47,958 nt of DNA, taken from assembly GCA_017478965.1 (NCBI GenBank), contig JAFVCV010000011.1, positions 1 to 47,958 on the forward strand, written 5' to 3'. A program made the translations under genes and the position numbers. Positions 10,129 through 38,911 of this stretch are shown piece by piece. The notes under the pieces were generated by a model, which ran no database searches, had not been told where the DNA came from, and worked only from the letters and a program-made list of their open reading frames with translations. Within the stretch, counting starts at the first letter, position 1. Every line of letters starts with the position of its first letter. The DNA is from Ruminococcus sp. (GTDB taxonomy: Bacteria > Bacillota > Clostridia > Oscillospirales > Ruminococcaceae).

Positions 10129-13100
10129 CAGTCTGACTCTCCTCTTTCCTTTGCTATCTTTTCCAGCTCTTTTTCCATAAGCTCCCTGCTGCCCGATACC
10201 GGCTCCTCAGGGAAGGCCCTGCCGCAGATGCCGAAGTACTTGCAGTAGCTGCAAACGTCCTTCATGGGCTTAGCGTCGATGTCACCCTTGAGCAGCCTTT
10301 CGCCGTATTCAGCCACCTTGCGTTTTGCGAATATCCTCATTGCCGTGAACATAGAGTCGCTGACGGTCATGGCAGAAAGCGACTTCTGGCTAAGCTCCCT
10401 GTCAAGGACCGTATTGACTCCCCCGCTGTCTGTTATCCTGCCCTTTCTCTCAAAGGCAATTTCTGCCGAGGCGCAGGCAGCCTCATAAAGCTCCTGCTCT
10501 GAAAGCTCCCGGTCCGGGCCGATCGGTCCGCCCTCCGAAAGAAGTCTGAGATAGAACACCCCGGCCTGCTCAGGCTCATACTCCTCCAGGGGGCTGCCCT
10601 TTTCAAGCAGCATCGAGAGATATATGAGCATTTGCAGATCAAGCCCGCAGTAAAGGTCCGCTAAGTCCAGGTCCGCATGGGTCCGGTACTTATAGTCTAC
10701 TATCCTGACGAACTTCCGGCCATTGTCGTTCTCGTAAATATCCGCCCGGTCGATGATGCCGGTCATGACTATCTTTCTGCCGTCCTCCAGGCTTATCTCA
10801 AGAGAGCCTTTATCTGAGCTGAGACTGTACTCAGTGATGACCGGCGCAAAGCTGCCGCCTTTAAGCTCTCTCTGAACGTATTTTACTATGTAGAATGCCC
10901 TCTCCTTCATCTGCCCGAAACGGTATCTGAAAATGCTGCTCTTGCCGAAATCTCCGCAGAACACTTCTTCGTAATAGCTCTCGAAAGCGCTGTCTATGAG
11001 AGCCCGTATCTCCTCATCGCTCAGAGAAAGGAACCGTTCCCTGTTCTCCTCAGGGGCGCCGCTGACGTCCACTGCCTTCTGCAAAACGCTGTGGACCATC
11101 AGGCCCTTGTTCAGGCTGTCGATGTCCATGCGCCTTTCGCTGTCAAGCTTTAACCCATAGCTGCAAAAATACATGAACGGACACTTGAAATAATTGTCCA
11201 GCCTGGTAGGCGAAGCGCCCAGCCTGTCACCGCCGCAGAAAAGCTCCCCGGCAGTCCTGGGACTGAGCCTGTAGGGCTGACCTTCTTCGCCGTTTCTGAG
11301 CCTTCTGAGCTTTTCGTAATAGATCGGGTCGTCCATCAGAGACTGATAAACCGCCCCTGACTGACTGTCCCCGGAGCGGAAACGCTCGATGTACTTGACG
11401 AAGGCAGTCTTGTATGAAGTGCAGAAAAACTCCATCGGAAAAGAGTTTATCCTTTTCACCGGAAGGCCCAGTATATCCCTGACCTCCCTGACCAGCATCG
11501 AGGGCCTTTTCTCGCTGCCCAGCAGGTCCCCACGGGAATAGCTGACATAAAGTCTGTCCGATGGTGCGCACAGCACCGAATAGGCCGCAAGGCGCTCATG
11601 TTTCATGTCATTGAGCACATTGGCTTCAATGACAAGGTCCTCCCTGACCCTCAAAAGCTCCTTCTCATGCTCGGTCATCAGCCCGCTGCCCTTTAACGGC
11701 GCCGGGAACACCCCGTCATTGACCTCTGCGGCAAAAACTGCCCTGACCTCTCCCAGTCTTGACCTGGCGGCGTCAGTGACCCGCAGGCAGTCCAGCTTCT
11801 GCGGCGGGCTGGCAGTCTTCATCTGAGAGAGCATGATGCTGTAAAGCTCATAGTATTTCCTCAGACTTATCTTTTCATCTCCCAGTATCTGGTATATGGA
11901 CCTTACTGCCGAAAGGCTCAGGTTCCATAGCTGTTTAAGGCCCCTGGCTATCTCCGTGCCTGTCTCGTTGGCGGAGACTCCCGCCCGGCTGACACGGCTC
12001 ACCATCGAATAGGTCTGCTTAGACAGCTCTACCTCTCCCAGCAGGTCATAGAAGGCCCGTGATATCTCTGCGGCGGAGCGGTCCTGTCCGGCCTGTCTGA
12101 ACCTCAGGAGAGGGCCTATGACCTTCTCTCTCAGCTCGTTTATCCTTTCCAGCCTTACGCCCTCTCTGGGGGCGGCGGTAAAGGGCCTGCTCCACATCTC
12201 ACCCTCAACTCCCCAGCGGATACAGTATTCTTCCAGATCGCATATCTCATAGTCCAGCATACTGTAAAGAGGCGACTTTATCAGTTTCATGATGTTCTCC
12301 GTCCTGAATCCCTTTGTCAGCACAGACCGGAAAACAGCGTTTATGTAATGGACTATAGCCGATGCGTCAACACTGTCCCGCTGGTCGATGAAATAGGGGA
12401 TCTCATAGCGCTCCAGTGCGGCCTCCATGACCGGTGCAAAACCTTTGAGGTCCCGGACCGTCACCGCAATGTCGTTATAGCTGTAGCCCTCCTCTCTCAC
12501 CAGCCGGCAGACCTCCGCACATATGAAGTCGGCTTCCTCATAAACGTCGTCTGCCTCCAGGACCTGTACGCTGCCGCCCTTTGCCTTGCAGCCCTGCTTT
12601 TCCACGCTGAAAAGCTCCCTGCTCAGCATCAGCAGCTCCTCACTGGCATACCCGCTCTCCACGCTTTCCTCGACGGCGAACTTTTTGTTGTGGTCCCTGG
12701 CCATGTCTGTAAGCTGCTGCATGGTCCTGACCGTTACGGAGAATGGATGGACGGCGTGCTGTCCGACGGTTTTTATATCCAATAAAAGGGACACGTAAAC
12801 ATTTGCAGCGTCCCTGATGCAAAGGTCCAGTATCTTCCTTTCATCATAGCTGAACCCGGTGAAAGCCGTAACGAACACGCTCATGTTCCTGAACAGCCCC
12901 TTTTCCTTCGCAGTGGCTGCGGCCTCTGCCATAGCTGTCATGCTGTCTGTAAGTCCCGCACTTTCAAGCTCTTCAAGATAATATCTGTAAATATGCCCAA
13001 GGTCGAAAAGTTTCAGGGACACGGAGCCTTCCAGCCGTTCGGCGGCCCTGCGAAGGTCCTCCGGGGTGATGCCGCTCTCCCTGAGCTGGTCCACCAGCTC

Positions 13101-13466
13101 GATGGAATCAGCGATAAAGCTGCCCTTGTCAAAGCTGTTCTTATAATACTTAGCCCGGCCGCCGGCCGCCAGTCTTCTGACCGCCTTGAACATCAGTATC
13201 ATCTTGGCGTTGTCGCCGGCCTGCTCTCTCAGCCCGCTGCCCTTCTCCTTGCCGATAAGCTCAGCCAGGCGGTTAAAGCCCGTGGTGGTGATGCTGTTGA
13301 AAAGCCTTGGTCCTAAGCATTTGTAAAGGCTCTTGTCAAACTCAAAGGAAAACTGGTCAGGCACGATGACCAGAACTTTTTCCCCCATAAAGGCTGCCTG
13401 CCTGATATAGTCCTTCATGAGCTCTTCACGGTCGCTGCGGGCCGGACCTGTGATGATCTTCAGCAC
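10128..13466 (-). CDS. addB: AddB, helicase-nuclease subunit B
   Basis: A 1112-residue AddB, partner of AddA. The C-terminal nuclease domain shows GIIDRADIY and IVDYKYR. The four iron-sulfur cysteines are visible at about 762 (FKCPF) and 1072, 1075 and 1081 (CSYCKYFGIC), the arrangement known for AddB. The N-terminal nucleotide-binding loop is unusual: GPARSDREE where the family usually has GRAGSGKT/S, so the Walker lysine is missing. The GTG start is chosen for its AGGAGGT site 8 nt upstream and because the family begins directly before this strand. It has its own consensus promoter. Confidence 0.96.
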   Translation of the reverse strand: MLKIITGPARSDREELMKDYIRQAAFMGEKVLVIVPDQFSFEFDKSLYKCLGPRLFNSITTTGFNRLAELIGKEKGSGLREQAGDNAKMILMFKAVRRLAAGGRAKYYKNSFDKGSFIADSIELVDQLRESGITPEDLRRAAERLEGSVSLKLFDLGHIYRYYLEELESAGLTDSMTAMAEAAATAKEKGLFRNMSVFVTAFTGFSYDERKILDLCIRDAANVYVSLLLDIKTVGQHAVHPFSVTVRTMQQLTDMARDHNKKFAVEESVESGYASEELLMLSRELFSVEKQGCKAKGGSVQVLEADDVYEEADFICAEVCRLVREEGYSYNDIAVTVRDLKGFAPVMEAALERYEIPYFIDQRDSVDASAIVHYINAVFRSVLTKGFRTENIMKLIKSPLYSMLDYEICDLEEYCIRWGVEGEMWSRPFTAAPREGVRLERINELREKVIGPLLRFRQAGQDRSAAEISRAFYDLLGEVELSKQTYSMVSRVSRAGVSANETGTEIARGLKQLWNLSLSAVRSIYQILGDEKISLRKYYELYSIMLSQMKTASPPQKLDCLRVTDAARSRLGEVRAVFAAEVNDGVFPAPLKGSGLMTEHEKELLRVREDLVIEANVLNDMKHERLAAYSVLCAPSDRLYVSYSRGDLLGSEKRPSMLVREVRDILGLPVKRINSFPMEFFCTSYKTAFVKYIERFRSGDSQSGAVYQSLMDDPIYYEKLRRLRNGEEGQPYRLSPRTAGELFCGGDRLGASPTRLDNYFKCPFMYFCSYGLKLDSERRMDIDSLNKGLMVHSVLQKAVDVSGAPEENRERFLSLSDEEIRALIDSAFESYYEEVFCGDFGKSSIFRYRFGQMKERAFYIVKYVQRELKGGSFAPVITEYSLSSDKGSLEISLEDGRKIVMTGIIDRADIYENDNGRKFVRIVDYKYRTHADLDLADLYCGLDLQMLIYLSMLLEKGSPLEEYEPEQAGVFYLRLLSEGGPIGPDRELSEQELYEAACASAEIAFERKGRITDSGGVNTVLDRELSQKSLSAMTVSDSMFTAMRIFAKRKVAEYGERLLKGDIDAKPMKDVCSYCKYFGICGRAFPEEPVSGSRELMEKELEKIAKERGESD

Positions 13467-19273: not shown

Positions 19274-19498
19274 TTAAAGGGAATTGAGCTTTTTTTGCAG
19301 CTCTATCATGTGGTTACGACAGGCGGTTATCTCGCCGGTGTACTTGTTGAACCACTCTACATCATTCTCGTCAGGCTCCTCCTGCAAAAGCACCGCCTGC
19401 ACCAGAGCACTCTGGGACCTGGAACGCTTACGCTCTATCTCCTCGATGGTCTGCTTGCAGATCTTTATCTCCTTTTTCAGCTTTCTCTTCTCATTCAT
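19274..19498 (-). CDS. Small coiled-coil protein, last gene of SipW/AAA operon
   Basis: A 74-residue, highly charged protein, mostly alpha-helical by composition, with two predicted coiled-coil stretches (about 3-30 and 52-72) broken by an acidic link (EEPDENDVEWF). No signal peptide or membrane segment, so probably cytoplasmic. It starts 19 nt after the previous gene with GGAGAG ahead of the ATG and is followed by the operon terminator. No family recognised. Its position suggests an accessory or assembly role with the membrane proteins upstream. Confidence 0.65.
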   Translation of the reverse strand: MNEKRKLKKEIKICKQTIEEIERKRSRSQSALVQAVLLQEEPDENDVEWFNKYTGEITACRNHMIELQKKLNSL

Positions 19499-19517
19499 AG
19501 CCGCTCTCTCCTTCTGA

Positions 19518-19970
19518 CTAACTGCCCTTTTTGTCGATGGAATCTACTACCGCCTTAGCCTCTTCATAGCCCTTGTCAAGGTCTGCGGCCATATCTTCCA
19601 AGGCCGTTTTCAGTTCCTCCATCTTTCCCGACATCTGCACGGGGTACTTTATCAGGCAGGTGTTTACCTCATTTATGACGACCTGGCTCTTTTTCTGGTC
19701 CTCTATGAGAAATGCAAAGGACCCGGCGCAGCTCACGTAGCTGCTTATCCTTTTATACCTCAGTTCCAGGTCCCCCTTGTTCTCGATATAAAGCTCCATC
19801 TCCTTAGCCGCATGGCTGAGCTCGGTCTTGTACTGCTTTATATAAGTTTCCTGCACCCTCTTTGTCTCGTCGATATAAAGTCCTACGAACACCAGCAGTG
19901 CGATAAGAGTGATGATCCAGAGGATAATGGCGCTAATCATCCTTCTCTTCATTATCTTCTCTTGGTTCAT
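19518..19970 (-). CDS. Single-pass membrane protein with helical external or internal domain
   Basis: A 150-residue protein with one N-terminal membrane segment (about 10-32, MISAIILWIITLIALLVFVG) and a long helical remainder rich in Glu and Lys. Positive residues before the helix (MNQEKIMKRRM) suggest an inside N-terminus and an outside C-terminal domain. It starts inside the preceding gene (38-nt overlap, different frame) with a very strong GGAGGTGAG site, so its translation does not depend wholly on that gene. Unknown family. Placement suggests it belongs to the SipW/AAA membrane assembly. Confidence 0.7.
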   Translation of the reverse strand: MNQEKIMKRRMISAIILWIITLIALLVFVGLYIDETKRVQETYIKQYKTELSHAAKEMELYIENKGDLELRYKRISSYVSCAGSFAFLIEDQKKSQVVINEVNTCLIKYPVQMSGKMEELKTALEDMAADLDKGYEEAKAVVDSIDKKGS

Positions 19971-22887
19971 CTGCTCTCACCTCCTCCGGCTCATAGCCTT
20001 CCTCCATCAACCTTTGTTTTTCCTTCTCGATGGCCTCTCTCATGAGCCTTTCCTTAGCGTCCTCAGGACTTTCCTTCTCTTTGGCGATCTCGCTGCCTAT
20101 CTTGGCCAGGCTCCTCAGCTCATAGACTGATATAAGAGAAATGGGTATTATCACCAGTATCAGCAGCAGTTTCCTGGGACTGGCAAAGGTGTTGACCCAG
20201 ATAAAGAACCTGGCTCTGCCTGTATACTTTCCAACGATCCTGTCCCTTGCCACCACCGTGCTGTCCTCCACCGGGTTTGCGTCACCCTTGGTCACAAAGG
20301 TCCCGTCCTGCCTTACCTCGGTTATCCTATGGGTCACAAGCATACCGCTTATGTCCTCCTGGTCCGAGTAGAAGGAGATTATGTCGCCCTCCCTCAGCTC
20401 ATCCGGGTCCGTCCTTTTCACCACGATGTAGTCGCCTACGTGGATGCTCTGCTCCATACTGCCTGTCATGACTTTCAGTATGCTCCTGTGGAATATCTCT
20501 ACCGGCTTGCCCCTTGCGGCACAGCTCATCACATATGCCGTGAACAGCACTGCCAGTATCAGCACCACGGTCATTATCCGGTTTGCTATCCTGCCTGCCC
20601 GGCTGTCCTGGTCCTCCTGACTTTCCTTACCGTCCTGGCTGTTCCGGTTATTCTGATAGCTCCTCTCGAACTCACGGTTCTCTCTGATCGATCTCCTGAG
20701 CTCATCTACCCTTCTGCGGAGCTTTTCAGCGGCACTGACATGATACTCCCTGTAAAGGCTCTTCATCTGTCTGTCAATGGCCTGCTGCTCCTCCGGGGTC
20801 CTCTTAGGCGCAACGTAAACAGGCTTTGGCTTGCCCTTCATCTGCTGACGCCTGCGTTTTTTGAACTTATAGTCGTTTATGGCCCGCATAAAGCGGTACT
20901 TGAAAGTCCCGGCATACTTCCTGTAGTATACCTCCATGGCCTCTCTGGCCTGCTTCTCCTGCTCCTTCTGCTTCCTGCGCTCCTCAATTTCCCTGCGCTT
21001 TGCCTTGAAGCCGGGGTCGTCGGTATCCTCCGGTATTATGCCGAATACCATCGCCAGCACATATCTTATCAGCCTGGCGATGACATATATCGGGTTTTTT
21101 GAATATTCCTTATATATATCACGGAAAGGCTTGTTCTCGAAATAGGTCCTCTCCTCCTTGAGCCTCTGGGCCCTTTCTGCCTCCCGCCTTTCCTTTTCCT
21201 TCCTCTGCTGCTCCAGCTTCATTCTTGCGGCCACAGCTCTCGGATCCTCGAACTCCTCCTCGGCCTGCTCCTCGTTTTCCTCGATGGCGGCCTTGGCCTG
21301 CTCTATCTCCTCCTCTGTGACCTCTTCATAGGCCTTCTTCTCCAGCTCCTTCTGGTCCTCCGGCTCCTCGTTTATAAGAGCCTCCTTGTCCATGCCCTCG
21401 GCCTCGCCCAGCTCGGCCCGCATCTTGGTCTTATTGGAGCTGACTCTGGCTCGCTCGGCAGCCTCTCTTTCTTCCTGCTCCTTTTTGAGCCTTCTCTCCT
21501 CGTCCCGTTTTCGCAGCTCCTCCACTCTCGCCAGCCGCTCGGCCTCCAGCCTTTCTCTCTCCCTCTCGGCTGCCTCCTGCTCGGCCCGCTTTTTCTCCAG
21601 CATCTCCCGGAGCCTGCGTTCTTCCTCTTCCTTCCTCTGTCTTATCCTTTCCAGCTCTGCCTGCTTTGCGGCTTCTATCCTTCTCTGCTCCTCCAGCCGC
21701 TTCTCTTCCTCCAGCCTGAGCTGTTCGGCCTTCTGTCTTTCCTCCTCGGCCTTTGCTATATAAGCCCTCTCGATATCTATGACTGTGTTGACCTCTTCAA
21801 ACACGACCCTGATATCCTTAGGCAAATTTTTCTTGACCCTGAAATCGCCCTCAGAGACCACGAAACCCGCTATCCCCTCTGCATAGACATTATAGTCACC
21901 CGAAAGCTCGTTAGAAAATCTCTTAACGAACTTAGGGTCAAGCTTTTTGGGCTTGCCGGTCTTCAGCTCTTTTATCTGCCCCTTATCGGTATAGGACCTG
22001 AAAAGCAGCAGATTAAGTATCACCAGCTTGTAAAAATCCTCCACATAGCTCATCTCTGGCCTGACTGCGGTGTCCTCTACATTTATCTCATAGCCGACTT
22101 TGTCGTAGCTCTCTATATACTGCCAGAGCGTAAGGCAGGCTTTGAGGTCAACGTTCTTCATAATGGCGTTGGTCCTCATTATAGGCGGCCTTACATAGGT
22201 GTTCCCCAGTTTCTGGCAAAGCTCCGAACCCTTATAGCCCTCTATGATCTTTTTCAGCTTTTCGACCCTCTGCCACACGCTGTAGCCGCTCTTGTCATAA
22301 GCGTCCAGGTCCGACACAGTCTCCAGCTTTACCTCGAACTTCATCTTCCCACCGCTGCCGTCGTCGATAGAGGTATCGAACCCCAGGGAGAAGACCTCCT
22401 CATCCTTAGTGACCTGCGCTAACTTTTCATATCTGATATTTATGAAGATATAGAGCCTGTCGATAAGGGTATTTATGAACTTGTTCTCATAGGTCATAAG
22501 GCTCTCTTCCTTATGAACGTTGAGTATCTTCGACGGGGTTATCTTCCCCGTCTTCTTATCAATGCTCTGTATAAGGTCTGTGTGCTGAGCAAGGTGCTTT
22601 ACCGACTCTACCGTTATCTTTTTCGATAAAGCTATAGGAACTACCTCTTCGATGTCCTCGATGGTCCTGCCGGGATTTCTCAGCACATTGTCCACATGAG
22701 TGAGTCCGTTCTCAATGGCCTCCACCCAGGTCACGTCTATAGCCTTTGCCATCAGCTTTCTGTTCATGGCAAAGGTGTTCCTGCTTGAATGCAGCAGTGA
22801 GTCCAGAGAGCCGAACAGCTCGTCGTCATCAAAGGCGCCGGTAGACTCCTTAAAATCCTCATACCACTTGCCGTACAAGCTATCCAA
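19933..22887 (-). CDS. McrC N-terminal-like / coiled coil / SipW-type signal peptidase fusion
   Basis: A 984-residue fusion. Residues about 1-375 resemble the DUF2357-like region found N-terminal to the McrC nuclease, including YENKFINTLIDRLYIF. Where a PD-(D/E)xK nuclease would follow, there is instead an extremely charged coiled coil (about 375-600) and a basic linker (about 640-765). The C-terminus is an ER/SipW-type signal peptidase: membrane segment about 770-790, catalytic Ser about 810 (TGSMEQSI), His about 853 (VTHRIT), Asp in TKGDANP about 869 and DRIVGK, and a closing membrane segment about 905-922. The TTG start has a GTGAGG site. The gene directly follows the McrB-like ATPase gene, as mcrC follows mcrB. 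DUF2357 assignment is by pattern, not search. Confidence 0.8.
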   Translation of the reverse strand: MDSLYGKWYEDFKESTGAFDDDELFGSLDSLLHSSRNTFAMNRKLMAKAIDVTWVEAIENGLTHVDNVLRNPGRTIEDIEEVVPIALSKKITVESVKHLAQHTDLIQSIDKKTGKITPSKILNVHKEESLMTYENKFINTLIDRLYIFINIRYEKLAQVTKDEEVFSLGFDTSIDDGSGGKMKFEVKLETVSDLDAYDKSGYSVWQRVEKLKKIIEGYKGSELCQKLGNTYVRPPIMRTNAIMKNVDLKACLTLWQYIESYDKVGYEINVEDTAVRPEMSYVEDFYKLVILNLLLFRSYTDKGQIKELKTGKPKKLDPKFVKRFSNELSGDYNVYAEGIAGFVVSEGDFRVKKNLPKDIRVVFEEVNTVIDIERAYIAKAEEERQKAEQLRLEEEKRLEEQRRIEAAKQAELERIRQRKEEEERRLREMLEKKRAEQEAAERERERLEAERLARVEELRKRDEERRLKKEQEEREAAERARVSSNKTKMRAELGEAEGMDKEALINEEPEDQKELEKKAYEEVTEEEIEQAKAAIEENEEQAEEEFEDPRAVAARMKLEQQRKEKERREAERAQRLKEERTYFENKPFRDIYKEYSKNPIYVIARLIRYVLAMVFGIIPEDTDDPGFKAKRREIEERRKQKEQEKQAREAMEVYYRKYAGTFKYRFMRAINDYKFKKRRRQQMKGKPKPVYVAPKRTPEEQQAIDRQMKSLYREYHVSAAEKLRRRVDELRRSIRENREFERSYQNNRNSQDGKESQEDQDSRAGRIANRIMTVVLILAVLFTAYVMSCAARGKPVEIFHRSILKVMTGSMEQSIHVGDYIVVKRTDPDELREGDIISFYSDQEDISGMLVTHRITEVRQDGTFVTKGDANPVEDSTVVARDRIVGKYTGRARFFIWVNTFASPRKLLLILVIIPISLISVYELRSLAKIGSEIAKEKESPEDAKERLMREAIEKEKQRLMEEGYEPEEVRADEPREDNEEKDD

Positions 22888-22930
22888 CCGTCCTCACCTG
22901 CCTTTTTGAAATAGTTTTTACTTCACCCTG

Positions 22931-24505
22931 TCAGAACAGCTTTTGCAGTCTCTCCAGATATGCTATCGACTCATTCATCTTGTTCTTGCCAAAGGATTTG
23001 TTGATATAAACGCAAAGCTCCCTCAGCTCGTCCCTGAGCATCGCCAGGTTCAGCGACTCGAACTTTCTGAATATCTTGGTAGCCAGCACGTAGTCTATAC
23101 CGTCCAGCTCATCGCCGCCGCAGGCTACGTAAACAGGCACAAACAGACCCATCTGCTTTAAGATACGGTTACCGAAAGCCACTCTCAGCTTTTCAATGAC
23201 CCACAGATCCAGCTGCTGTATCTTTTTAAGGTTCTCCGCCGAGATAGGATACTTGTCAAAGGCCTCGCTAAACAGCTGGTCGAGATGCTTGAAGCTAAGA
23301 TTGATAGGCGGAGTATCAGGCGCCTCAAAGGACACGCCCTTAGCATCCAGATTGATAGGCTGGGCACGGTCGTAGACCTTATCAGAGATAGCATAGGTCG
23401 AGTCATCGTTATTAGCCGTACCGATATACCACACGTTCTGCGGTATCACCAGCTTGCCCTTGTCCAGCTTTTCCGGGTCGGTGCTCCATACATTAGGCAC
23501 CAGGTCCAGCTCCCACTCGTCAGCGTTTGGCATTTCAAGAATGGACAGCATCTCTGCAAAATAATACTCTATACGGGCGATGTTCATCTCATCGAGAAGT
23601 ATCAGGTTCACATCGTCGTTATAGCTTGAAGAGTATATCCTCTTGAGGACCTCAGTCTCATTGAAATTCTTGGTGAACTCGTTAAAGTATCCGAAAAGCT
23701 CCGTCCTGTCACGCCATGAGGGCTGCACCGATGCTATGGTAGTGTCCGACTGAAGGAACTTACCGAAGGAGTAAGGCAGCGAAGTCTTACCTGTACCGGA
23801 GATGCCCTGAAGGATAATAAGCTTTGTAGACGCCATGCCTGCTATAAATAGCCTGATGGTCTTGATATCATAATAAAGGTGCATACGTGAGCAGGCGAAA
23901 TTGCGGTAAGTCTCGCAAATATCGCTGAGGGTAAGGTCGTTGTTGTACTCCGGCGGAGTATAGGTCTTGTAAAAGCTGTCCACCTCGAAGAGCCTTGAAA
24001 ATCTCCTGTCCGAAGTTTGTACAACGCCGTCCGCACTGGCTTCGCCGGCGCTAACAGCTCCGCCCTCGCCATCTGTGCCGAATGACCCGGCACCCTCGGC
24101 CAGGGCAAGTCCCCCTGACACCGGCAGCCCCATCTGAGCCACCTTCATGGCCATTATCTCGTCCTTCTCCTTGGTCATTTTCAGGACCTGTCTCTGCAAT
24201 GAGGCTATCTCCTCCAGCAGGTCCTCATTGCTGACGATAGAATGCCTGAACCTGACATATTTTCTAATTGCCAGCACTATCATAAGCCCTATGAGTACAT
24301 AGACCGCAGCCACCAGTATTATGGCCAGCACTGCCAATATCCACCCCAGTGCGCCGAAGTCCGTCGAATAGGTCTTGAAAATACTTATGTAATTTCTGAT
24401 GTCGAAGATCTGTTTCAATCCTCTGCCAAGGCCTGTGAAAATAGTCGCAAACCCTTTCAGCATCTCGGATATGAAAACAAAGAACCATTTAAGAAATCCT
24501 GTCAT
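22931..24505 (-). CDS. Membrane-anchored McrB-like AAA+ ATPase
   Basis: A 524-residue AAA+ protein of the McrB/dynein-related (AAA_5) class. The N-terminus has two hydrophobic stretches (about 5-25 and 52-82), then a coiled coil (about 92-125) and a low-complexity Gly/Ala linker. The ATPase core has Walker A GISGTGKTS, Walker B NLILLDEMNIARIEYY and sensor-1 region WYIGTANNDDSTYAISDKV. McrB proteins are soluble GTPases; membrane anchoring and the absence of an N-terminal DNA-binding domain argue against restriction. The ATG overlaps the SipW stop by 4 nt. It probably works with the McrC-like/SipW fusion encoded next, remodelling membrane or secreted substrates; that role is inference. Confidence 0.85.
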   Translation of the reverse strand: MTGFLKWFFVFISEMLKGFATIFTGLGRGLKQIFDIRNYISIFKTYSTDFGALGWILAVLAIILVAAVYVLIGLMIVLAIRKYVRFRHSIVSNEDLLEEIASLQRQVLKMTKEKDEIMAMKVAQMGLPVSGGLALAEGAGSFGTDGEGGAVSAGEASADGVVQTSDRRFSRLFEVDSFYKTYTPPEYNNDLTLSDICETYRNFACSRMHLYYDIKTIRLFIAGMASTKLIILQGISGTGKTSLPYSFGKFLQSDTTIASVQPSWRDRTELFGYFNEFTKNFNETEVLKRIYSSSYNDDVNLILLDEMNIARIEYYFAEMLSILEMPNADEWELDLVPNVWSTDPEKLDKGKLVIPQNVWYIGTANNDDSTYAISDKVYDRAQPINLDAKGVSFEAPDTPPINLSFKHLDQLFSEAFDKYPISAENLKKIQQLDLWVIEKLRVAFGNRILKQMGLFVPVYVACGGDELDGIDYVLATKIFRKFESLNLAMLRDELRELCVYINKSFGKNKMNESIAYLERLQKLF

Positions 24506-25164
24506 GATCCGCTCCCGCTCTGCTCATCTTCCCCGCCGCCTGAATCTTTTTTCTGGCTGGCCAGGTACTCTTCTATCGCACGTTTCTTGATCTCTTCCTC
24601 GTCCTCCTCTGAAAGCTCAGGCTTCTTGACCTCCATAAGAGCGACGATGAACTTGTAAAGCTCCACAAGGAAAAATATCGCCATCGGTATGATTATACAT
24701 ATGAAAAATCCTTTCTGAGTCCTCAGAAAGCTCATGACCTTACCGAACCCGCTCAGCTTGACTTCGGTCCACTTGCCGATAATGTCCCCGGCATATGCGG
24801 GCATATCATCGTCTGCGCTGTTGTTGTCGCCACGTGTAACAAAGCTCCTGGTATTCTCGAAATCGTTTATCCCGACGATCCTATGGGTGTTTTTGACTTT
24901 TTTCCCGTCGATGATGGTCCAGAAGGTGATGACGTCGTCCTCCTTCAGCTCATAGATATCATCGACCTCCTTGCAGATTATGAGGTCGTCTTTCTTGAAG
25001 GTAGGCTTCATTGAATCCGACTCTACCGTCAGGGGGATATACCCCAGCAGATTAGCAACATCGTTGTTCCTGCCCGAGGAAAACACGATAACCGTCACCA
25101 GCAGTGCTAAGATAAGTATTATCCACACCAGCACGTTCACAACAACTTTCAACACTGTTTTCAT
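24502..25164 (-). CDS. sipW: SipW-type (ER-type) signal peptidase I
   Basis: A 220-residue membrane peptidase that removes signal peptides from a restricted set of secreted proteins. An N-terminal membrane segment (about 5-28) is followed by catalytic Ser51 (ESDSMKPTF), His94 (KNTHRIVG) in place of the bacterial Lys, Asp113 (TRGDNNS) and Asp about 127 (DIIGKW); this Ser-His-Asp set marks the ER/SipW type. A second membrane segment lies at about 152-175, then an acidic cytoplasmic tail. The ATG has AGGAG upstream and starts 17 nt after the TasA-like gene. Likely substrates are the TasA-like proteins encoded at 25182 and 26878. Confidence 0.9.
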   Translation of the reverse strand: MKTVLKVVVNVLVWIILILALLVTVIVFSSGRNNDVANLLGYIPLTVESDSMKPTFKKDDLIICKEVDDIYELKEDDVITFWTIIDGKKVKNTHRIVGINDFENTRSFVTRGDNNSADDDMPAYAGDIIGKWTEVKLSGFGKVMSFLRTQKGFFICIIIPMAIFFLVELYKFIVALMEVKKPELSEEDEEEIKKRAIEEYLASQKKDSGGGEDEQSGSGS

Positions 25165-25181
25165 ATATTTTTCTCCTAACT

Positions 25182-25913
25182 TTAAGTAGTCTCTTCGATC
25201 TTGAAGTCCATACCCAGTTTCAGGGTCCCGCCGATAAGCTCATCGGTACAGTCCGGGTCGTTGCCCTCCAGCCAGATGACCACTGTATACTTATCCTTCC
25301 CCTGTGGCTCAAAGCCCTCATGGGAAGTGGTCATGACCACCGTGGAAGAAGTGAACTCGCTGTCACAGTCACCCTCCCTGCCGGTGCCGTCAGACTTTGT
25401 CTTACCGTAGACAGTCTTATCGCCGTTTATGTAGACCGCCACCCTGACGGCCTCGTCAACTTTATTTGTTACATTCTCAACAGTCATCTCGCCGGAATAG
25501 CTTATGGTGTCATCGCCCGCATTTATAAGGTAGAAGGTATAAGCTATATAGCTCTCGCCGTTGTGACTGCCGTTTATCATATCTATATTGTCCGGCAGAT
25601 CCTCGCCGCTGATATTGGTCATGTCGTAAACGATGTCTGCATTCAGCACCGAGTTGGTCTTGTTATATTCCGGGACCTCCGAGAGAGTCAGTCCCTGTCT
25701 CATCATATCGTACTTGCTGATCTTCACTGTGAAGCTGCCGTACTTGTCATAAAAATAAGAGACTGCATAAGCGATAGCGATGACCGCCACCAGTATAATG
25801 ACCAGCAGTCCCAGCACTCTCATAACAACTACATGGCGCTTGGCCTCTTTAGCTGTTCTTCGCAGTGTCAGCACATCCACGATCTTATTCTCTTTATTCT
25901 CAGCCAAAGTCAT
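25182..25913 (-). CDS. TasA/camelysin-like membrane-anchored protein
   Basis: A 243-residue protein with a 30-residue basic cytoplasmic start, a membrane segment at about 33-55 (MRVLGLLVIILVAVIAIAYA), then a beta-rich external domain. The C-terminus, VVIWLEGNDPDC followed by LKLGMDFKIEE, matches the end of the SipW-dependent protein at 26878-27963 (VWLEGEDQEC ... ISLKFSKIE), showing that the two share a fold. KYGSFTVKI after the membrane helix occupies the place of the YAWFT motif of SipW substrates. It sits directly before sipW, as tasA-type genes often do. It may be a fibre anchor or minor subunit; whether the helix is cleaved is unknown. Confidence 0.75.
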   Translation of the reverse strand: MTLAENKENKIVDVLTLRRTAKEAKRHVVVMRVLGLLVIILVAVIAIAYAVSYFYDKYGSFTVKISKYDMMRQGLTLSEVPEYNKTNSVLNADIVYDMTNISGEDLPDNIDMINGSHNGESYIAYTFYLINAGDDTISYSGEMTVENVTNKVDEAVRVAVYINGDKTVYGKTKSDGTGREGDCDSEFTSSTVVMTTSHEGFEPQGKDKYTVVIWLEGNDPDCTDELIGGTLKLGMDFKIEETT

Positions 25914-25942
25914 TTCCCCTTTATATAAAAAGCCTTATTGCC

Positions 25943-26701
25943 CTATTGATCCTCTGAACGTTTTCTGACATATCTTTCCGCCATATAGTCCCCCGCCAGG
26001 GAACCTGCGCAGTAATGGCACTCGAAGCCGTAAAGGACCTCAGCCTGCTTAGCGTTAGAGATACCGTCCGCCACCGGCTCGGCCCCGAGGTCGGTCACAA
26101 AGTCTATCAGCGACTTCACTGCACTGTCAGACCTTTCGCCCTTTCCGATATACTGAGTTACCTCCGGGCTGAACATCACGTAGTCCACCTCGAATTCCGC
26201 CAGCCTCATTATAGGACTGCTGACCCCTCCGAACTCAGTGAGCATGAAGTGATAGCCCCTGTTCCTGAGTTTTCTTATATTGTCCGCCACCGCCGGCTCG
26301 CTCTCCTCAAACAGCTTTTCCGAAAGAGCAAAGCAGATCTGCGACGAAGGTACCTGATACTTCTCAGCGACCTCCATGACCTTATGCTCAGCCTGAATGT
26401 CCCTGAGGTACTTTGCGGGCATATAGACCGACAGCCAGTTGAAGGGCAGCTCTCTTTCGTTGAACTTCCCCACCGCCTCCAGGGCCTGCACAAACTCCAG
26501 CTCGAACAGGTTGACGCACTGCTGGGTTATCTCTGAGACGTCCCTGAAATTTTCCGGCATAAGGGTGCCAAGTCCCGGGGTATTGAGCCGGGTCTGTGAC
26601 TGATAGAAAGCGCAAAGCCCGCTGGAGATACTTCTGATTACCCTGTAATAAAGCTCCACCGCCCGCATACCGTCCACAGTTGTGATAACATCGTCAGCCA
26701 A
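25943..26701 (-). CDS. Degenerate EAL-domain protein
   Basis: A 252-residue protein with the layout of an EAL (cyclic-di-GMP phosphodiesterase) domain but without its catalytic residues. The EALLR position reads QTRLN, although GLGTLMPENF that follows is typical. SEKLF stands for the ExxES strand, TEFGG for DDFG, VDYVMFSP for VDxIKID, and VADGIS for xAEGVE. Most Mg-binding acids and the catalytic Lys are lost, so hydrolysis is unlikely; it may bind c-di-GMP or a partner protein. The TTG start is chosen for its AAAGGGGGG site. First gene of the SipW/AAA operon, under a consensus promoter. C-di-GMP control of surface fibres would fit; this is inference. Confidence 0.8.
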   Translation of the reverse strand: MADDVITTVDGMRAVELYYRVIRSISSGLCAFYQSQTRLNTPGLGTLMPENFRDVSEITQQCVNLFELEFVQALEAVGKFNERELPFNWLSVYMPAKYLRDIQAEHKVMEVAEKYQVPSSQICFALSEKLFEESEPAVADNIRKLRNRGYHFMLTEFGGVSSPIMRLAEFEVDYVMFSPEVTQYIGKGERSDSAVKSLIDFVTDLGAEPVADGISNAKQAEVLYGFECHYCAGSLAGDYMAERYVRKRSEDQ

Positions 26702-26737
26702 ACCAAGCCCCCCTTTCGGTCATATTTATTCTATTTT

Positions 26738-26766
26738 ATTATACAACATTCTTGCCTCGATGTCAA
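26738..26766 (-). promoter_or_regulatory. Promoter of the EAL-SipW-AAA operon
   Basis: Perfect consensus on the minus strand: TTGACA (26761-26766), 17-bp spacer, TATAAT (26738-26743). The leader is about 30 nt. One promoter could drive all seven genes down to 19274. Confidence 0.88.
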
Positions 26767-26877: not shown

Positions 26878-27963
26878 TCAGTTGCTCTCGATTTTTGAGA
26901 ACTTGAGGGAAATATCCCAGTCCTGAGCAGCATTCGGGTTTATGCACTCCTGGTCTTCGCCTTCGAGCCAAACACGGATAGTTGCAGGAACAGAAGGTCC
27001 ATAGTTTTTATCGGTAGCCTTTGTTACTGTAACAACTGCGGTGGTACCAGCAGTTGTAGCACCACTGTTATAGACCGTAGGAGTATCATAATCGCCACTG
27101 GCGCTTGAAACTGCCTTTGCATCAGCACTTCCCTTATTAGCCCAGTCATACACGGTATCTCCATTGAATGCGCCATCAGCAACTGCGATCATATTGGTAC
27201 TCGTAGAAGCGCTTTCCCCTGTGCCAGTAGTCTGTATGATCGCTACTCTAACAGCCTTATAAAGATCACCATCTGAAACAGGATCAGCAGCAGTAGCTCC
27301 ACTATCAGCATCACGCTTTGCAAACGCCTGAACAGTCAGTTTAACATCACTGCCCGTTGCAGAAGTTCTGAACCAAACCGGTATATCAATATAATAACCG
27401 TCATCATTGGTGTTGGCAACTGCGTATCCTGCCTGCTTTGTATATCCTTCCCACTTATCGTTATTTGCTTTAGTCTTTTCTCCAGATGTTTTAGCGTGAA
27501 GTGTAGCCATACCGCCGGAAGCAAGAGCATCATAATAGGCTGCTCCGTCCTTCACAGTTGAACCGTCACCTGTTGCATCGGGGGTAAAGAACAAGCTTTC
27601 ACCCGTCGTAGAAGATGCAGGGATAAGATTGCCAAAAATGTAATATGAACTGATATCTGCTGTATTGTTCCAATCAGGGTTATCAGTTGAAGCTCCGGTA
27701 TTATGAGGTTCAGTGGTCGTAGTACTTCTCGTAAGCGTTCCAGTGCTTGCCTGAAGTGTTCCACCAGTAACAGCACCCAGGGAGATCTGCAAGTCCTCAG
27801 GCACAGTAGCAGTCATCTGAATATTCTTGACTTCGACCTCACGGCTCATTGTGAACCATGCGTAAGTCGATGTTGCCAGCATAGACGCCGATATAGCCAG
27901 CATACCCGCAGCGGGTATCAATTTCTTCATTGCGGAATTTTTCTTCTTAGTATTTGCTTTCAT
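26878..27963 (-). CDS. TasA-like SipW-dependent secreted protein
   Basis: A 361-residue exported protein. A basic start (MKANTKKKNSAMKK) precedes a hydrophobic segment, then ATSTYAWFT at about 30-38, the hallmark of SipW-cognate signal peptides. The mature part begins with a beta-rich domain (VEVKNIQMTATVPEDLQISLG), is Ser/Thr/Ala/Gly-rich, and ends VWLEGEDQEC ... KFSKIE, shared with the membrane protein at 25182. Relatives such as TasA, CalY and camelysin form surface or biofilm fibres or are secreted proteases. The second ATG (27963) has better RBS spacing than the ATG at 27969. A consensus promoter, leader hairpin and strong terminator suggest high, independent expression. Base usage is visibly more AT-rich than the neighbours. 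Confidence 0.85.
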   Translation of the reverse strand: MKANTKKKNSAMKKLIPAAGMLAISASMLATSTYAWFTMSREVEVKNIQMTATVPEDLQISLGAVTGGTLQASTGTLTRSTTTTEPHNTGASTDNPDWNNTADISSYYIFGNLIPASSTTGESLFFTPDATGDGSTVKDGAAYYDALASGGMATLHAKTSGEKTKANNDKWEGYTKQAGYAVANTNDDGYYIDIPVWFRTSATGSDVKLTVQAFAKRDADSGATAADPVSDGDLYKAVRVAIIQTTGTGESASTSTNMIAVADGAFNGDTVYDWANKGSADAKAVSSASGDYDTPTVYNSGATTAGTTAVVTVTKATDKNYGPSVPATIRVWLEGEDQECINPNAAQDWDISLKFSKIESN

Positions 27964-27989
27964 AATCATTTTCCTTTCATAACTTATTT

Positions 27990-32987: not shown

Positions 32988-34127
32988 ATGCTTCATCATA
33001 GATACGCTCCCGGTTTCAGGTTCGTCCTGCCGCCGGAGCCATTCGACAAATACACCCCCCTGGAGCTGCTGAGATACTGTCCCGGGGCCACTATGTATAT
33101 GCCGGGGACAAAGGATTTCACTCCGAAGATACTGAACGGTGATATGCCGGGCCTGAGCAGCATAGTGCTGTGCTTTGAGGACAGCTGCCCCGAGGAGCGG
33201 GTGGAGGAAGCGGAGGAGAACGTTTACCGGCTGCTGAGCACAGTCAGCAAGGCCCGGACCGAGGGCAGGCTCTGCGAGGACGATGTGCCCCTCATCTTCG
33301 TGCGTGTCAGGAACTTTCAGCAGTTCGTCCGCTTTTCTGAGGGTCTTGACAAACAGATGGTCTCATCACTCTGCGGGATAAATTTCCCGAAATTCAATAC
33401 CGACAACGGCAGGGATTATTTTGGTTTTCTCAGAGAACTGAACCGCCGATTTGACGAGATCATCTACGGTATGCCTATTATCGAGGACCTGAGGGTAGCC
33501 TATAAGGAGACCAGACTTGAGGAGCTCCTTGGCATAAGGGAAATACTTGACGCTCACAGGGACCTGGTATTGCAGGTCAGGGTGGGCGGCACGGACTTTT
33601 CTTCAGTATTCGGAGTTCGCCGTGGGGTGGACCATTCCATCTACGATATCATGACCGTCCGTGACTGCCTTTGCGATATCATGAATATCTGCGGGCGCAA
33701 CAACGATTATGTCATATCCGGCCCGGTGTGGGAATACTTCCGTGCTCCCGCCGGGGCTATCTTCGACGAGCTGCCGCAGCACGGCCTGGAGGACTACCTG
33801 CTCAAACGCCAGCCAATTGTCAACTATGAGATAGACGGCCTGCTCAGGGAGGTCATACTCGACAAGGCCAACGGTTTTGTAGGCCGGACCGTTATCCACC
33901 CCAGCCACGTTAAGTTTGTCAACGCCCTGATGGCAGTTACAAAGGAGGAATATGACGACGCCTGTATGATACTTCAAAGCCACGGCACGGGTGTGGCAAA
34001 GGGCGCCGGCAGCAATAAGATGAATGAGATGCGGCCGCACGCTTGCTGGGCGAAGAAGATATTCATGCGGGCAAGGGCATTCGGTGTCATCGAGAACCAG
34101 AATTCCTATATCAGACTTTTTTCATAG
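32988..34127 (+). CDS. HpcH/HpaI-CitE-like aldolase (C-C bond lyase type)
   Basis: A 379-residue TIM-barrel protein of the CitE/HpcH-HpaI superfamily, most like the C-C bond lyase group found in tellurite/stress-response islands. Visible landmarks are YMPGTKDFTPKIL (phosphate-binding region), SIVLCFEDSCPEE with the metal-binding ED pair, a conserved Arg in VRVRNF, PIIEDLRVAY, LQVRVGGTDFS and TVIHPSHVKFVN. Substrate unknown; related enzymes cleave or form CoA-thioester or small-molecule C-C bonds. The ATG is preceded by GGAGGA. It pairs with the GNAT gene 18 nt downstream, but no ter genes are in this window. Confidence 0.82.
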   Translation: MLHHRYAPGFRFVLPPEPFDKYTPLELLRYCPGATMYMPGTKDFTPKILNGDMPGLSSIVLCFEDSCPEERVEEAEENVYRLLSTVSKARTEGRLCEDDVPLIFVRVRNFQQFVRFSEGLDKQMVSSLCGINFPKFNTDNGRDYFGFLRELNRRFDEIIYGMPIIEDLRVAYKETRLEELLGIREILDAHRDLVLQVRVGGTDFSSVFGVRRGVDHSIYDIMTVRDCLCDIMNICGRNNDYVISGPVWEYFRAPAGAIFDELPQHGLEDYLLKRQPIVNYEIDGLLREVILDKANGFVGRTVIHPSHVKFVNALMAVTKEEYDDACMILQSHGTGVAKGAGSNKMNEMRPHACWAKKIFMRARAFGVIENQNSYIRLFS

Positions 34128-34145
34128 ACAGGAAAGGAGCAAAGA

Positions 34146-34583
34146 ATGGACATCGAAGTGCTGAGGGCGGAGGAGACCTGGCAGCAGACCGGGGCCTATT
34201 ACGTCAGGATACAGGCTATGGCCAGAAAACACAGCATACCTCTTCGGCGGGAATTTGACGAACACGACGGTCCGCAGACTAAGTACATCGTTCTGACTGA
34301 CAGTGATTTTCCCGTGGCCACCTGCCGATTTTACCCGCTGGATACAGAACGGGCAATGGTGGGCAGGGTCGTGGTCCTGCCGGAATACCGTGGAAGGGGC
34401 CTTGGTAAGAGGGTCCTGGACGAGTGTGAGAGATGGCTCCGTGAGCTCGGCTATCGGAAGGCCCTTATCGAGAGCCGGGACGTGTGCGTGGGATTTTACG
34501 AAAAGCAGGGTTATACCGTGACTGAAAACAGGATCATTCACGGCGACACATTTGACTGTGTGCCAATGGAAAAAACGCTGTGA
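34146..34583 (+). CDS. GNAT family N-acetyltransferase
   Basis: A 145-residue acetyl-CoA-dependent acyltransferase. Motif A is VVLPEYRGRGLGKRVL, the pyrophosphate-binding loop, followed by ALIESRDVCVGFYEKQGYTV (motif B region). Length is normal for the ElaA/small GNAT type. It has an AAAGGAG site, follows the lyase gene and ends at a terminator, so the two form an operon. The acetyl acceptor cannot be deduced. Confidence 0.9.
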   Translation: MDIEVLRAEETWQQTGAYYVRIQAMARKHSIPLRREFDEHDGPQTKYIVLTDSDFPVATCRFYPLDTERAMVGRVVVLPEYRGRGLGKRVLDECERWLRELGYRKALIESRDVCVGFYEKQGYTVTENRIIHGDTFDCVPMEKTL

Positions 34584-34592
34584 AAAGCAAGA

Positions 34593-34621
34593 AACGCAGG
34601 ATACAACGGGTATCCCGCGTT
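34593..34621. terminator. Terminator between converging genes
   Basis: AACGC-a-GGATAC / GTATCC-c-GCGTT (one mismatch) with loop AACGG, followed by TTTTTCATTTT on the plus strand. The minus side continues TCTTGCTTTTC and may also stop the nucleotidyltransferase transcript. Confidence 0.8.
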
Positions 34622-34629
34622 TTTTCATT

Positions 34630-35772
34630 TTATTTACCTTTTAAAAGCCGTCCCAGCTCATATCCGGTCCTGTCCTTGTTTTTTGTCAGCGCCCTTCTGA
34701 TGCGGCTAACCATCAGCAGCGGCAGCCTTAGTCTGTTCTCATAATACCAGGGATAATAGGAGGCGAACAGGGCGTACCTCGTGTCGCTCTTCCTTACAGG
34801 CACCAGCACCCTGTTTTTAAGATATCTGAGCTTTGCGAAAAGGCCCTTGCCGTATCTGTCCATGGTGTTTTTTACCCTGTTGTCCACGGTGCCGTAGGTA
34901 CCGCTGAAAACAATGTAGCTAAGCATTCTCTTGTTTTCGGCAGAAAGCTTTTCCCCGCCGAAAAGGCTCATAGCCAGACTGCTGCTCTGCCTTTCAAATT
35001 CATCAATGCCAAGCTTGCGGCACTGGCTCTCGATATACTCCAAGTCCATAGAAACGCAGTTTTCTTTCAGATAAACATAGGTGTCCACCAGAGAACGCAG
35101 ACCTGTCCCCCCGGCGCTGTAGTGCTTGAATTCATGGGCGACCATATAGACATAGAAATCCTCCGGAGTGAAATGATAGCCATAGGAATTCTCCTCGTCC
35201 TTTATCAGCCTGTCTTTGATACCGTCATAGTATTCATAGAGCCTGATCCCAGGGGTCATGGTGAAAAGCCGGGTGTGCATCTCAAAGTTGCTGACCGGTT
35301 GCTTATAGTAGATATCATGGTTCCCGGCGCCGAAACGTTCGGTGGTAAAGCCCAGGCTCTCCATTATCCTTCTGACGTCCCCGGCACGGGTCCGGTCAAA
35401 GAGTATATCGTTGTCGGACATCTGCCGCATACCGTATTCCGGGTACAGCTCTTTGAGCAATGCGCCTTTCAGCGGCATATACCAGATCTTTTCCTCTTCG
35501 AGCCGTTCAAGGAGCAATCCCCTGTCAATATCCATCTGGGCGTTTTTCCTTATGGCTTTTCCCATTGCCTGTGTAAATCGCTCATCTCTGACGCCGGCAC
35601 TGCCAAGGGCCATTGCGCACATAGCCGTCAGAAGATGGCTCTCTGAGGCCTTGTATACCTTATCAAGGTCCATCTTTGCTACCCTGCCGCTGCTCGGCAC
35701 ACGCTCGTTCACAGCGCAGTATGCAAGATAGATCACGTCCTTTACGGCTTTTAAGTATTCCTGTCTGTTCAT
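34630..35772 (-). CDS. Nucleotidyltransferase family protein (NTP_transf_5-like)
   Basis: A 380-residue protein whose middle section matches the uncharacterised nucleotidyltransferase family: PLKGALLKELYPEYGMRQMSDNDILF (split here by its conserved points) has the LKG, YP, R-x-x-SD-x-D pattern, the Asp pair probably binding metal. A later MVAHEFKHY segment is also typical. Members occur next to PqqD, HPr-kinase-like and ABC genes in RiPP clusters, where some modify peptide phosphates or side chains. The ATG overlaps the ABC exporter stop by 4 nt, and it is the last gene of the array. The donor nucleotide is unknown. Confidence 0.82.
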   Translation of the reverse strand: MNRQEYLKAVKDVIYLAYCAVNERVPSSGRVAKMDLDKVYKASESHLLTAMCAMALGSAGVRDERFTQAMGKAIRKNAQMDIDRGLLLERLEEEKIWYMPLKGALLKELYPEYGMRQMSDNDILFDRTRAGDVRRIMESLGFTTERFGAGNHDIYYKQPVSNFEMHTRLFTMTPGIRLYEYYDGIKDRLIKDEENSYGYHFTPEDFYVYMVAHEFKHYSAGGTGLRSLVDTYVYLKENCVSMDLEYIESQCRKLGIDEFERQSSSLAMSLFGGEKLSAENKRMLSYIVFSGTYGTVDNRVKNTMDRYGKGLFAKLRYLKNRVLVPVRKSDTRYALFASYYPWYYENRLRLPLLMVSRIRRALTKNKDRTGYELGRLLKGK

Positions 35773-38648: not shown

Positions 38649-38911
38649 CACTTTCCCTCGATGGCCCCGATGGCCCGCAGCTCGGTGACGACCTTGTGGA
38701 CATCGGCCTCTATCCTGCCCTCGGGAGCGTCGTATTTCTCACGCATTTTCCTGACGATCTCGGCCTCAGTAGTATCCTCCTTCATAAGTCCAAGTACCTC
38801 GCCCAGCATCTTGTTGCCCTTTACCAGCCCCGAAAACTTTGCGCTGCCTGTGGCGACCAGCATGGTCTCCTTTTTTGTCTCATGGACAATGAAATCCTTT
38901 TTGAGTTTCAT
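38648..38911 (-). CDS. PqqD-family peptide-recognition protein (RRE)
   Basis: An 87-residue winged-helix protein of the PqqD type, which binds leader peptides and presents them to modifying enzymes. Visible features are the beta strands around VHETKKETMLVATG, a GLVKGNKMLGEVLGLM helix, TTEAEIVRKMREKYDAPEGRI-type helix and wing, and a final helix VVTELRAIGAI. It starts 18 nt after the lipoprotein gene with AAAGGAA ahead of the ATG. Its presence is the main reason to read this region as a RiPP-like pathway. Confidence 0.85.
   Translation of the reverse strand: MKLKKDFIVHETKKETMLVATGSAKFSGLVKGNKMLGEVLGLMKEDTTEAEIVRKMREKYDAPEGRIEADVHKVVTELRAIGAIEGK

Follow-up and report, generated by a model that had tools for sequence, protein, structure and literature searches.

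Contig JAFVCV010000011.1 of a Ruminococcus sp. genome (GCA_017478965.1; 2.69 Mb in 55 contigs, 92.8% complete) was analysed over all of its 47,958 nucleotides, and this whole stretch, a single contig, is referred to here as the window. On its minus strand, from 26701 to 19274, lies a seven-gene operon that is probably a cassette of the CoCoPALM class, in which an McrBC-type motor without the nuclease is used in the biogenesis of SipW-dependent surface fibers. Membership in this class is itself highly likely, and a role in the biogenesis of SipW-type fibers or surface proteins is likely. That the nucleoside triphosphatase (NTPase) acts directly on assembly or processing, and not as a regulator, is proposed only tentatively. 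In favor of the fiber role we count two SipW-type signal peptidases, the joining of an McrC-like stalk and a SipW in one chain, an anchored TasA-like protein, secreted neighbors of the SipW type, and conserved co-occurrence of these parts. A membrane machine for a surface fiber, possibly under nucleotide-signal control, had been proposed in the first-pass annotation; the machine is still the best-supported reading, while control through the EAL protein of the operon could not be upheld.

CoCoPALM was reportedly described by Bell et al. (eLife 2024). As the available part of PMC11090510 has it, the class combines an NxD-type McrB-like NTPase bearing an N-terminal transmembrane (TM) segment with a DUF2357 McrC-like coiled-coil partner, has signal peptidases as neighbors, and was suggested to be linked to pilus assembly. 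In the operon we found the NxD signature, a DUF2357 McrC homologue with a coiled coil, and the association with SipW.

Organization of the operon

The ORF list (open reading frames, ORFs) places seven genes between one promoter and one terminator. The features are as follows, with lengths in amino acids (aa).

26878..27969, minus strand: adjacent SipW-type secreted protein, candidate fiber subunit, 363 aa
26818..26839, minus strand: terminator-like hairpin in the interval between the 363-aa gene and the operon
26738..26766, minus strand: operon promoter, TTGACA-17-TATAAT
25943..26701, minus strand: degenerate EAL-domain protein, cytosolic, 252 aa, TTG start
25182..25913, minus strand: TasA-like beta-sandwich protein, membrane-anchored, 243 aa
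24502..25164, minus strand: SipW-type signal peptidase 1 (SipW 1), 220 aa
22931..24505, minus strand: McrB-type AAA+ NTPase, membrane-anchored, 524 aa
19933..22887, minus strand: DUF2357-SipW fusion (McrC stalk-type domain, coiled coil, SipW 2), 984 aa, TTG start
22096..22746, minus strand: McrC-like stalk/DUF2357 domain of the fusion, residues 48-264
21412..21813, minus strand: long helix/coiled coil of the fusion, residues 359-492, from the secondary structure of an AlphaFold2 (AF2) model
21034..21090, minus strand: hydrophobic, basic helix of the fusion, probably membrane-associated, residues 600-618, hydropathy 2.05
20173..20607, minus strand: SipW 2 signal-peptidase domain of the fusion, residues 761-905, from TIGR02228 and Foldseek
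19518..19970, minus strand: single-pass protein, 150 aa, TM segment at residues 11-29
19274..19498, minus strand: small protein, probably a coiled coil, 74 aa
19214..19262, minus strand: operon terminator, from fold energy and a T run

From the EAL gene onward the genes are spaced by 29, 17, -4, 43, -38, and 19 nt. The promoter (26766-26738) is of the sigma-70 type and matches the consensus at 12 of 12 positions. The terminator (about 19262-19214; -34.9 kcal/mol, z -6.95, followed by TTTTT) was missed by a simple terminator scan of the window, which also contained no tRNA and no Rfam match at the gathering threshold. The ORF, promoter, and folding checks thus bear out the seven-gene order, the tight spacing, the consensus promoter, and the terminator given in the first-pass annotation.

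The NTPase, the stalk, and the signal peptidases

The AAA+ protein is McrB-like, as a profile search matched McrB sequences in the PDB at 2e-6. It has a single TM segment at residues 62-80, followed by a charged stretch, and neither it nor 23 relatives gave a Pfam match to FtsB/DivIC; an FtsB-like domain with TM and coiled-coil parts, fused to the NTPase, is a trait of the CoCoPALM class. The Walker A, Walker B, and NND-D motifs and R380 are invariant across 23 aligned sequences, and D305, E306, N308, N365, D368, and R380 align with Asp279, Glu280, Asn282, Asn333, Asp336, and Arg348 of McrB, respectively. All 112 AAA+ proteins carry NxD followed by D or E (NNDD in 111 and NKDE in one, that of L103); an ungapped alignment with McrB also permits NxxD in the 111, and the NKDE sequence favors NxD.

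The DUF2357 domain of the fusion protein is recognized by PF09823 with 29.7 bits (cut-off 23.3). The AF2 model of the fusion (predicted local distance difference test 75.8, predicted template modeling score 0.37) has fold matches to McrC and to signal peptidases; McrC appears in its Foldseek list only at E 0.42, and McrC is not among the 23 matches of a DUF2357 profile run against PDB sequences. The relation of DUF2357 to McrC therefore rests on PF09823 together with the fold match. A segment like the helix at residues 600-618 is present in 11 of the 12 relatives inspected that have separate genes, and under a stricter threshold a TM-like segment was found in 22 of 78 separate DUF2357 proteins. 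Stalk and SipW form one chain in 27 of 90 loci; this fused state needs three changes on the AAA+ tree, and it may have a single origin.

Both signal peptidases score above the TIGR02228 cut-off (SipW 2 with 95.1 bits), and no other protein of this genome does. SipW 1 and SipW 2 match NF046067 (6e-29 and 3e-27, respectively) without reaching the cut-off of that model, and the Foldseek matches of SipW 2 include 7p2p (6.7e-4) and 4n31 (3.7e-3). A Ser and a His, which we take to be catalytic-type residues, are invariant among the aligned members of 109 upstream and 91 downstream SipW relatives. The peptidase fold and its Ser and His are accordingly present.

Recurrence of the cassette

A scan of public genomes gave at least 570 confirmed AAA+ relatives, of which 80 were kept, and the neighborhood set consisted of 136 loci (L057-L192) fetched around AAA+ relatives. 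L104, L105, and L109 did not contain a strong AAA+ match and were left out; the other 133 loci were reduced to 116 by single linkage at 99.5% identity, a linkage that ran partly via the 90-aa fragment L110 and merged a few distinct loci. Neighborhood genes are mechanical ORFs labeled by hidden Markov models built from the window's own proteins, and a locus enters a given count only when its flank is long enough. Since every locus was reached by way of the AAA+ gene, the conservation counts are biased in favor of AAA+.

Of 103 testable loci, 102 have a DUF2357 gene within 1.5 kb after the AAA+ gene, and 101 of 105 have a SipW gene within 1.5 kb before it. Within 5 kb downstream there are a SipW (77/82 loci), the 74-aa protein (64/82), and the 150-aa protein (54/82), the last with a homologue in L080 (1.9e-15). 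Both SipWs were present in 73 of 78 loci. A TasA-like gene lies no more than 5 kb upstream in 72 of 85, and 60 of 66 loci have an EAL gene within 6 kb to one side or the other. At 70% identity the loci form 19 clusters, 13 of which include loci with 5 kb on both sides; in 11 of these 13, every such locus has both SipWs, and the other two belong to a SipW-less class. The latter (L099-L103, from genomes G202, G179, G166, G112, and G300) has AAA+ and no SipW in the stretch sampled, and DUF2357 was detected in four of its five loci. In L101 and its near-copy L102, DUF2357 lies between two AAA+ genes, which are followed by a 1292-aa transglutaminase-domain membrane protein.

The same association is seen at the level of genomes. 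Among 295 genomes of the order, AAA+ was found in 31 and DUF2357 in 30, each of the latter being an AAA+ carrier; the TasA-like protein was found in 23, of which 22 are AAA+ carriers, and the other (G327) has a partial TasA-like match and no AAA+. The nine AAA+ genomes that do not have the TasA-like protein comprise the five of the SipW-less class, G184, in which the AAA+ match is weak, and G064, G083, and G320, the locus of G320 lying on a 4.6-kb contig. In a set of 391 genomes of the class, 28 have an AAA+ profile match at 1e-20, and the weaker matches probably lie outside this class of AAA+ proteins. The co-occurrence check that the first-pass annotation had called for on the AAA+, DUF2357/SipW, and TasA-like genes is thus strongly positive, in loci and in order genomes alike.

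Within the genus, 25 of 29 genomes carry the AAA+ gene, and 10 of these 25 were compared with all four that do not, a small sample in which two of the four are only 70% and 87% complete. SipW exceeds the cut-off in 10 of 10 AAA+ genomes versus 1 of 4 others, and the family of the adjacent 363-aa protein is strongly matched (E <1e-40) in 10 of 10 versus 0 of 4. The strong match is within about 5 kb of the operon in nine of the ten and about 18 kb away in G021; AAA+-less G010 has one weak match (2.9e-5).

The operon is therefore a recurrent cassette, with AAA+ identities that range down to about 42%. Named near relatives of the AAA+ gene are from Ruminococcus, including R. albus 8 and KH2T6, and carriers of the cassette include the cultured rumen species Ruminococcus albus, R. 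flavefaciens, and Eubacterium ruminantium, which are known to degrade fiber. Because the AAA+ tree, made by a quick method, intermixes Ruminococcus, Eubacterium, and records named Lachnospiraceae, it suggests that the cassette may have moved between lineages as a unit.

To survey neighboring domains, we took the ORFs of 110-1500 aa that lie up to 8 kb away in 39 selected loci, removed the cassette AAA+, SipW, DUF2357, TasA-like, 150-aa, and 74-aa proteins (EAL proteins were kept), and grouped the remainder at 45% identity into 245 clusters; 222 representatives were scanned, with 22 under 150 aa and one more left out. The commonest families listed were EAL, at 19 with the cassette's own EAL proteins counted in, and GGDEF, at 15. 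As an opposing outcome, the first-pass annotation had considered that the ATPase pair might normally sit in restriction or defense islands together with a nuclease. Such an arrangement was not seen: no McrBC-type PD-(D/E)xK nuclease, nor any other nuclease family, was found among the 12 Pfam families that 50 DUF2357 proteins matched at 0.01 or among the neighbor families listed (the first 25 out of 81 and out of 85), which include one DNA methylase.

Secreted proteins and candidate substrates

The TasA-like protein looks membrane-anchored. Its label comes from a predicted structure that matches TasA only modestly: a TasA fiber is the top VIA-align row for its model, at a modest Z, TasA is outside the top 50 of the Foldseek list for the same model, and a profile of its alignment gave only weak, unrelated matches to PDB sequences. 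Pfam and NCBIfam-type models gave no family match, so that the resemblance claimed in the first-pass annotation is one of predicted fold and not of family assignment by sequence.

Of the two, the 363-aa SipW-type secreted protein next to the operon (27969-26878, same strand) is the more obvious candidate for cleavage. The first-pass annotation had omitted it, and it belongs in the same picture despite the terminator-like hairpin (26839-26818) that separates it from the operon. Its N-terminus reads ...SMLATSTYAWFTMS, with the signal STYAWFTM, and AWF is invariant in 39 aligned relatives; a profile of the family gave no match among PDB sequences. The YAWF DNA pattern occurs once in the whole genome, in this gene, and since a reversed control pattern occurs three times, the evidence from YAWF is one of place and frame, not of number. 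Family members, defined as phmmer matches below 1e-6 of 240-470 aa with no flank required, occur in 41 of 116 loci. Relatives of the protein are also found at five places on the conjugative plasmid pRUMAL02 of R. albus 7 (L232; NC_014825.1, 245153-264211), among recombinase and type I restriction genes.

The anchored and the secreted proteins share sequence features. All 10 of the 10 AAA+ genus genomes examined have a TasA-like gene that is picked up by the profile of the 363-aa family as well (4.7e-13 to 2.4e-8), and both proteins have the C-terminal motif [WF][LIVMF]E[GA]x[DEN]xxC (WLEGEDQEC in the 363-aa protein; sites in the window in the 25274 and 26970 region). The motif is present in 91 of 116 loci, and 20 of 23 carriers not labeled TasA-like are also YAWF-like at the N-terminus; as the pattern was picked after the sequences had been seen, these counts describe and do not test.

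Very large proteins lie upstream of SipW in distant loci (L080, 11720-15973; L085, 12964-18342), with longer ORFs, up to 2884 aa, listed in L182 and L187. The L080 and L085 proteins (1417 and 1792 aa) have SipW-type signals and received no NCBIfam name, nor did the 1417-aa one match Pfam; an NCBIfam scan of six large neighbor proteins named only a GGDEF-EAL protein.

The genus also has a second, stand-alone SipW system. In AAA+-less G028 (L228, 4634-7064) the stand-alone SipW is beside proteins with GGTFAYLTD and GGTMAFLTD signals. In G023 (L229, 2606-4729 and 15619-18398) two further SipWs lie away from the operon, with neighbors that have AYF/AFL-type signals and one FAWFTSKDEV. No AAA+/DUF2357 relative was found in the stretches sampled around these genes. 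A clean division of substrates, YAWF for the operon and AYLTD for the stand-alone SipW, was dropped in view of the FAWF-type signal in G023; a division between the two systems is a tendency at most.

EAL proteins and cyclic di-GMP

The EAL protein of the operon matches PF00563 at 4e-28 and has no membrane segment. Of nine canonical EAL residues, chosen from known motifs and located in the L081 protein, it keeps 0/9, and its 78 relatives keep at most 3/9; it does not have the residues of an EAL phosphodiesterase. The nucleotide-signal control proposed earlier, if by cyclic di-GMP acting via this protein, is therefore unlikely. In 18 more distant loci a GGDEF-EAL protein is encoded 2.2-4.0 kb downstream. 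All 18 copies have an EAL-type motif, strict DDFGTG is present in 3/18, and a GG[DE]EF-type signature was found in none of the 18. The large EAL proteins of the loci keep the two aspartates in 24/26 and 25/26 cases and all nine residues in 22/26, the reference L081 being counted. A link to cyclic di-GMP is retained only for the lineages with the downstream GGDEF-EAL protein.

Proposed mechanism

In the mechanism that we propose, the AAA+ protein would form a hexamer at the inner face of the membrane, with the stalk in its pore stimulating hydrolysis as in McrBC. The stalk would be joined across the membrane to SipW 2, by a covalent link in this operon, in such a way that hydrolysis could move or gate the outer complex. 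In this genome, where stalk and SipW are fused, binding of the stalk to the ring would almost inevitably couple the ring physically to SipW. SipW 1 and SipW 2 would cleave signal peptides of the YAWF type, releasing an N-terminal strand, which could then be handed to the growing fiber by donor-strand exchange, as in TasA. Hydrolysis may drive this hand-over of subunits, gate cleavage, or clear the SipW. The anchored TasA-like paralogue may serve as base or nucleator, a role like that of TapA, and the degenerate EAL protein may be a cytosolic regulator that works through protein contact.

A bolder version is a rotary or stepwise NTP-driven machine, in which the ring would turn or shift the stalk and each step would present, cut, and hand over one TasA-type subunit. 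We regard this version as rather unlikely; such an engine would be unlike the pilus ATPases, sortases, and donor-strand systems known to us.

Alternative explanations

The strongest competitor, though in our view an unlikely one, is that the AAA+/DUF2357 pair serves quality control or regulation of the SipWs, gating them, turning them over, or clearing cut signal peptides from the membrane, with fibers forming by donor-strand exchange alone. AAA+ proteins commonly remodel membrane proteins, and the client here could be SipW, which 27 of 90 loci encode in a single chain with the stalk. TasA fibers assemble with no NTPase stated in the part of PMC9674648 drawn on here. One residue also speaks against a motor: Ala381 of the AAA+ protein is aligned with Arg349, given as the arginine finger of E. 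coli McrB in the part of PMC6624300 consulted. Because of this Ala we slightly lowered our estimates for the motor step and for the rotary machine, and slightly raised that for quality control. On the other hand, AAA+ and DUF2357 are conserved like the SipWs in the loci, which were found through AAA+, and the stand-alone SipWs of G028 and G023 have secreted-protein neighbors with the pair absent from the stretches read.

It is improbable that the operon is instead a secretion or signaling apparatus for large adhesins that makes no fibers, the TasA-like protein being a processed sensor ligand and the EAL proteins setting the output. The very large SipW-type proteins that some distant loci encode upstream, the degenerate EAL protein in the core operon, and the downstream GGDEF-EAL protein in 18 loci could be read in this way. 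However, the anchored protein has a C-terminal module in common with the adjacent substrate and models, at a modest Z, as a fiber-type beta-sandwich, both of which speak against this reading.

Anti-phage defense, with a sensor NTPase controlling a secreted or membrane effector, is very improbable. McrB/McrC-type parts would suit it, the AAA+ protein matches the PADLOC candidate PDC-M26A at 2e-37, and related AAA+ genes are present on Deinococcus and Polaromonas plasmids beside large AAA-domain genes, in Deinococcus also with DUF2357. However, the other seven proteins have no PADLOC match up to E 0.1, no relative was confirmed in viral contigs, and the neighbors are secreted proteins, SipW, EAL, and GGDEF proteins; moreover, the AAA+ gene is in 25 of 29 genus genomes, unlike patchy defense genes. 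With the nuclease and neighbor-family results added, a defense island was rejected as the principal explanation.

That the genes are chance neighbors of unrelated function, for which only the SipW-less L099-L103 class could be cited, is practically excluded by the neighborhood and genome counts, which extend to AAA+ identities of about 42%.

Other genes in the window

Elsewhere in the window, a minus-strand cluster at 34122-38651 combines an ABC transporter with an NTP_transf_5 nucleotidyltransferase and a signal-peptidase-like protein that scores below the cut-off (37468-37923); it could serve peptide export or make a modified peptide. At 6427-13466, a UvrD-type helicase with PD-(D/E)XK is beside an AddB-like protein, as in the repair nucleases of the AddAB type, and is not part of the system described here. 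Near the contig end (40521-47948, minus strand) there is a 2475-aa protein with repeated MBG domains, which is probably a surface protein.

Significance

TasA fibers are described as growing by donor-strand exchange after SipW cleavage; an NTPase working on two SipWs would, if the proposal is correct, constitute an energy-driven or energy-gated route, and one that many gut and rumen Clostridia would share. It would also show a restriction motor turned to the cell surface. The CoCoPALM class gains concrete candidate substrates and a testable mechanism, and a role in attachment can be tested directly in the cultured rumen species that have the cassette.

Comparison with known systems

SipA of Streptococcus pyogenes acts in the context of sortase pili. 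It has a signal-peptidase fold like that of SipW 2 (PDB 4n31) and uses it in pilus polymerization; in the present operon the corresponding domain is part of one chain with an McrC-like stalk and retains its Ser and His. The tapA-sipW-tasA operon of Bacillus subtilis shares SipW processing of secreted beta-sandwich proteins and, possibly, donor-strand assembly; in the part of PMC9674648 used, SipW cuts the signal peptides and fibers grow by N-terminal donor strands, with one SipW and no AAA+/DUF2357 pair described. In Clostridium perfringens, the clostridial SipW of sipW-bsaA is likewise needed for extracellular localization of a filament-forming protein, and the available portion of PMC7395162 mentions no NTPase pair.

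Compared with McrBC of E. coli (PMC6624300, in part), the operon has the Walker and sensor-1 motifs, the McrC stalk-type fold, and presumably a hexamer with the stalk in its pore. It differs in the N-terminal membrane anchor of the AAA+ protein, the Ala at the arginine-finger position, the coiled coil and SipW that replace the PD-(D/E)xK nuclease, and its secreted-protein neighbors. PcdA of Staphylococcus aureus is another McrB-family NTPase coopted from restriction; it acts in cell division with FtsZ and DivIVA, and the portion of PMC10602043 consulted states no SipW/TasA link.

The closest relative is CoCoPALM, with the same NxD NTPase carrying an N-terminal TM segment, DUF2357 protein with coiled coil, and signal-peptidase neighbors, and the AAA+/McrC-like pair with a signal peptidase is consequently not the undescribed combination that the first-pass annotation took it for (PMC11090510). 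The main text of that paper treats the class briefly, defers its analysis, and does not contain the terms 'SipW', 'cyclic di-GMP', or 'EAL'. No later study of the class was found in the open-access literature, subscription papers and most preprints being outside this search. As far as we could see, the operon is thus a member of a named but uncharacterized class, distinguished by its stalk-SipW fusion. To what the main text of PMC11090510 gives, the present work adds the identity of the signal peptidases as SipW, candidate substrates, the stalk-SipW fusion, EAL partners both degenerate and intact, and co-occurrence across genomes.

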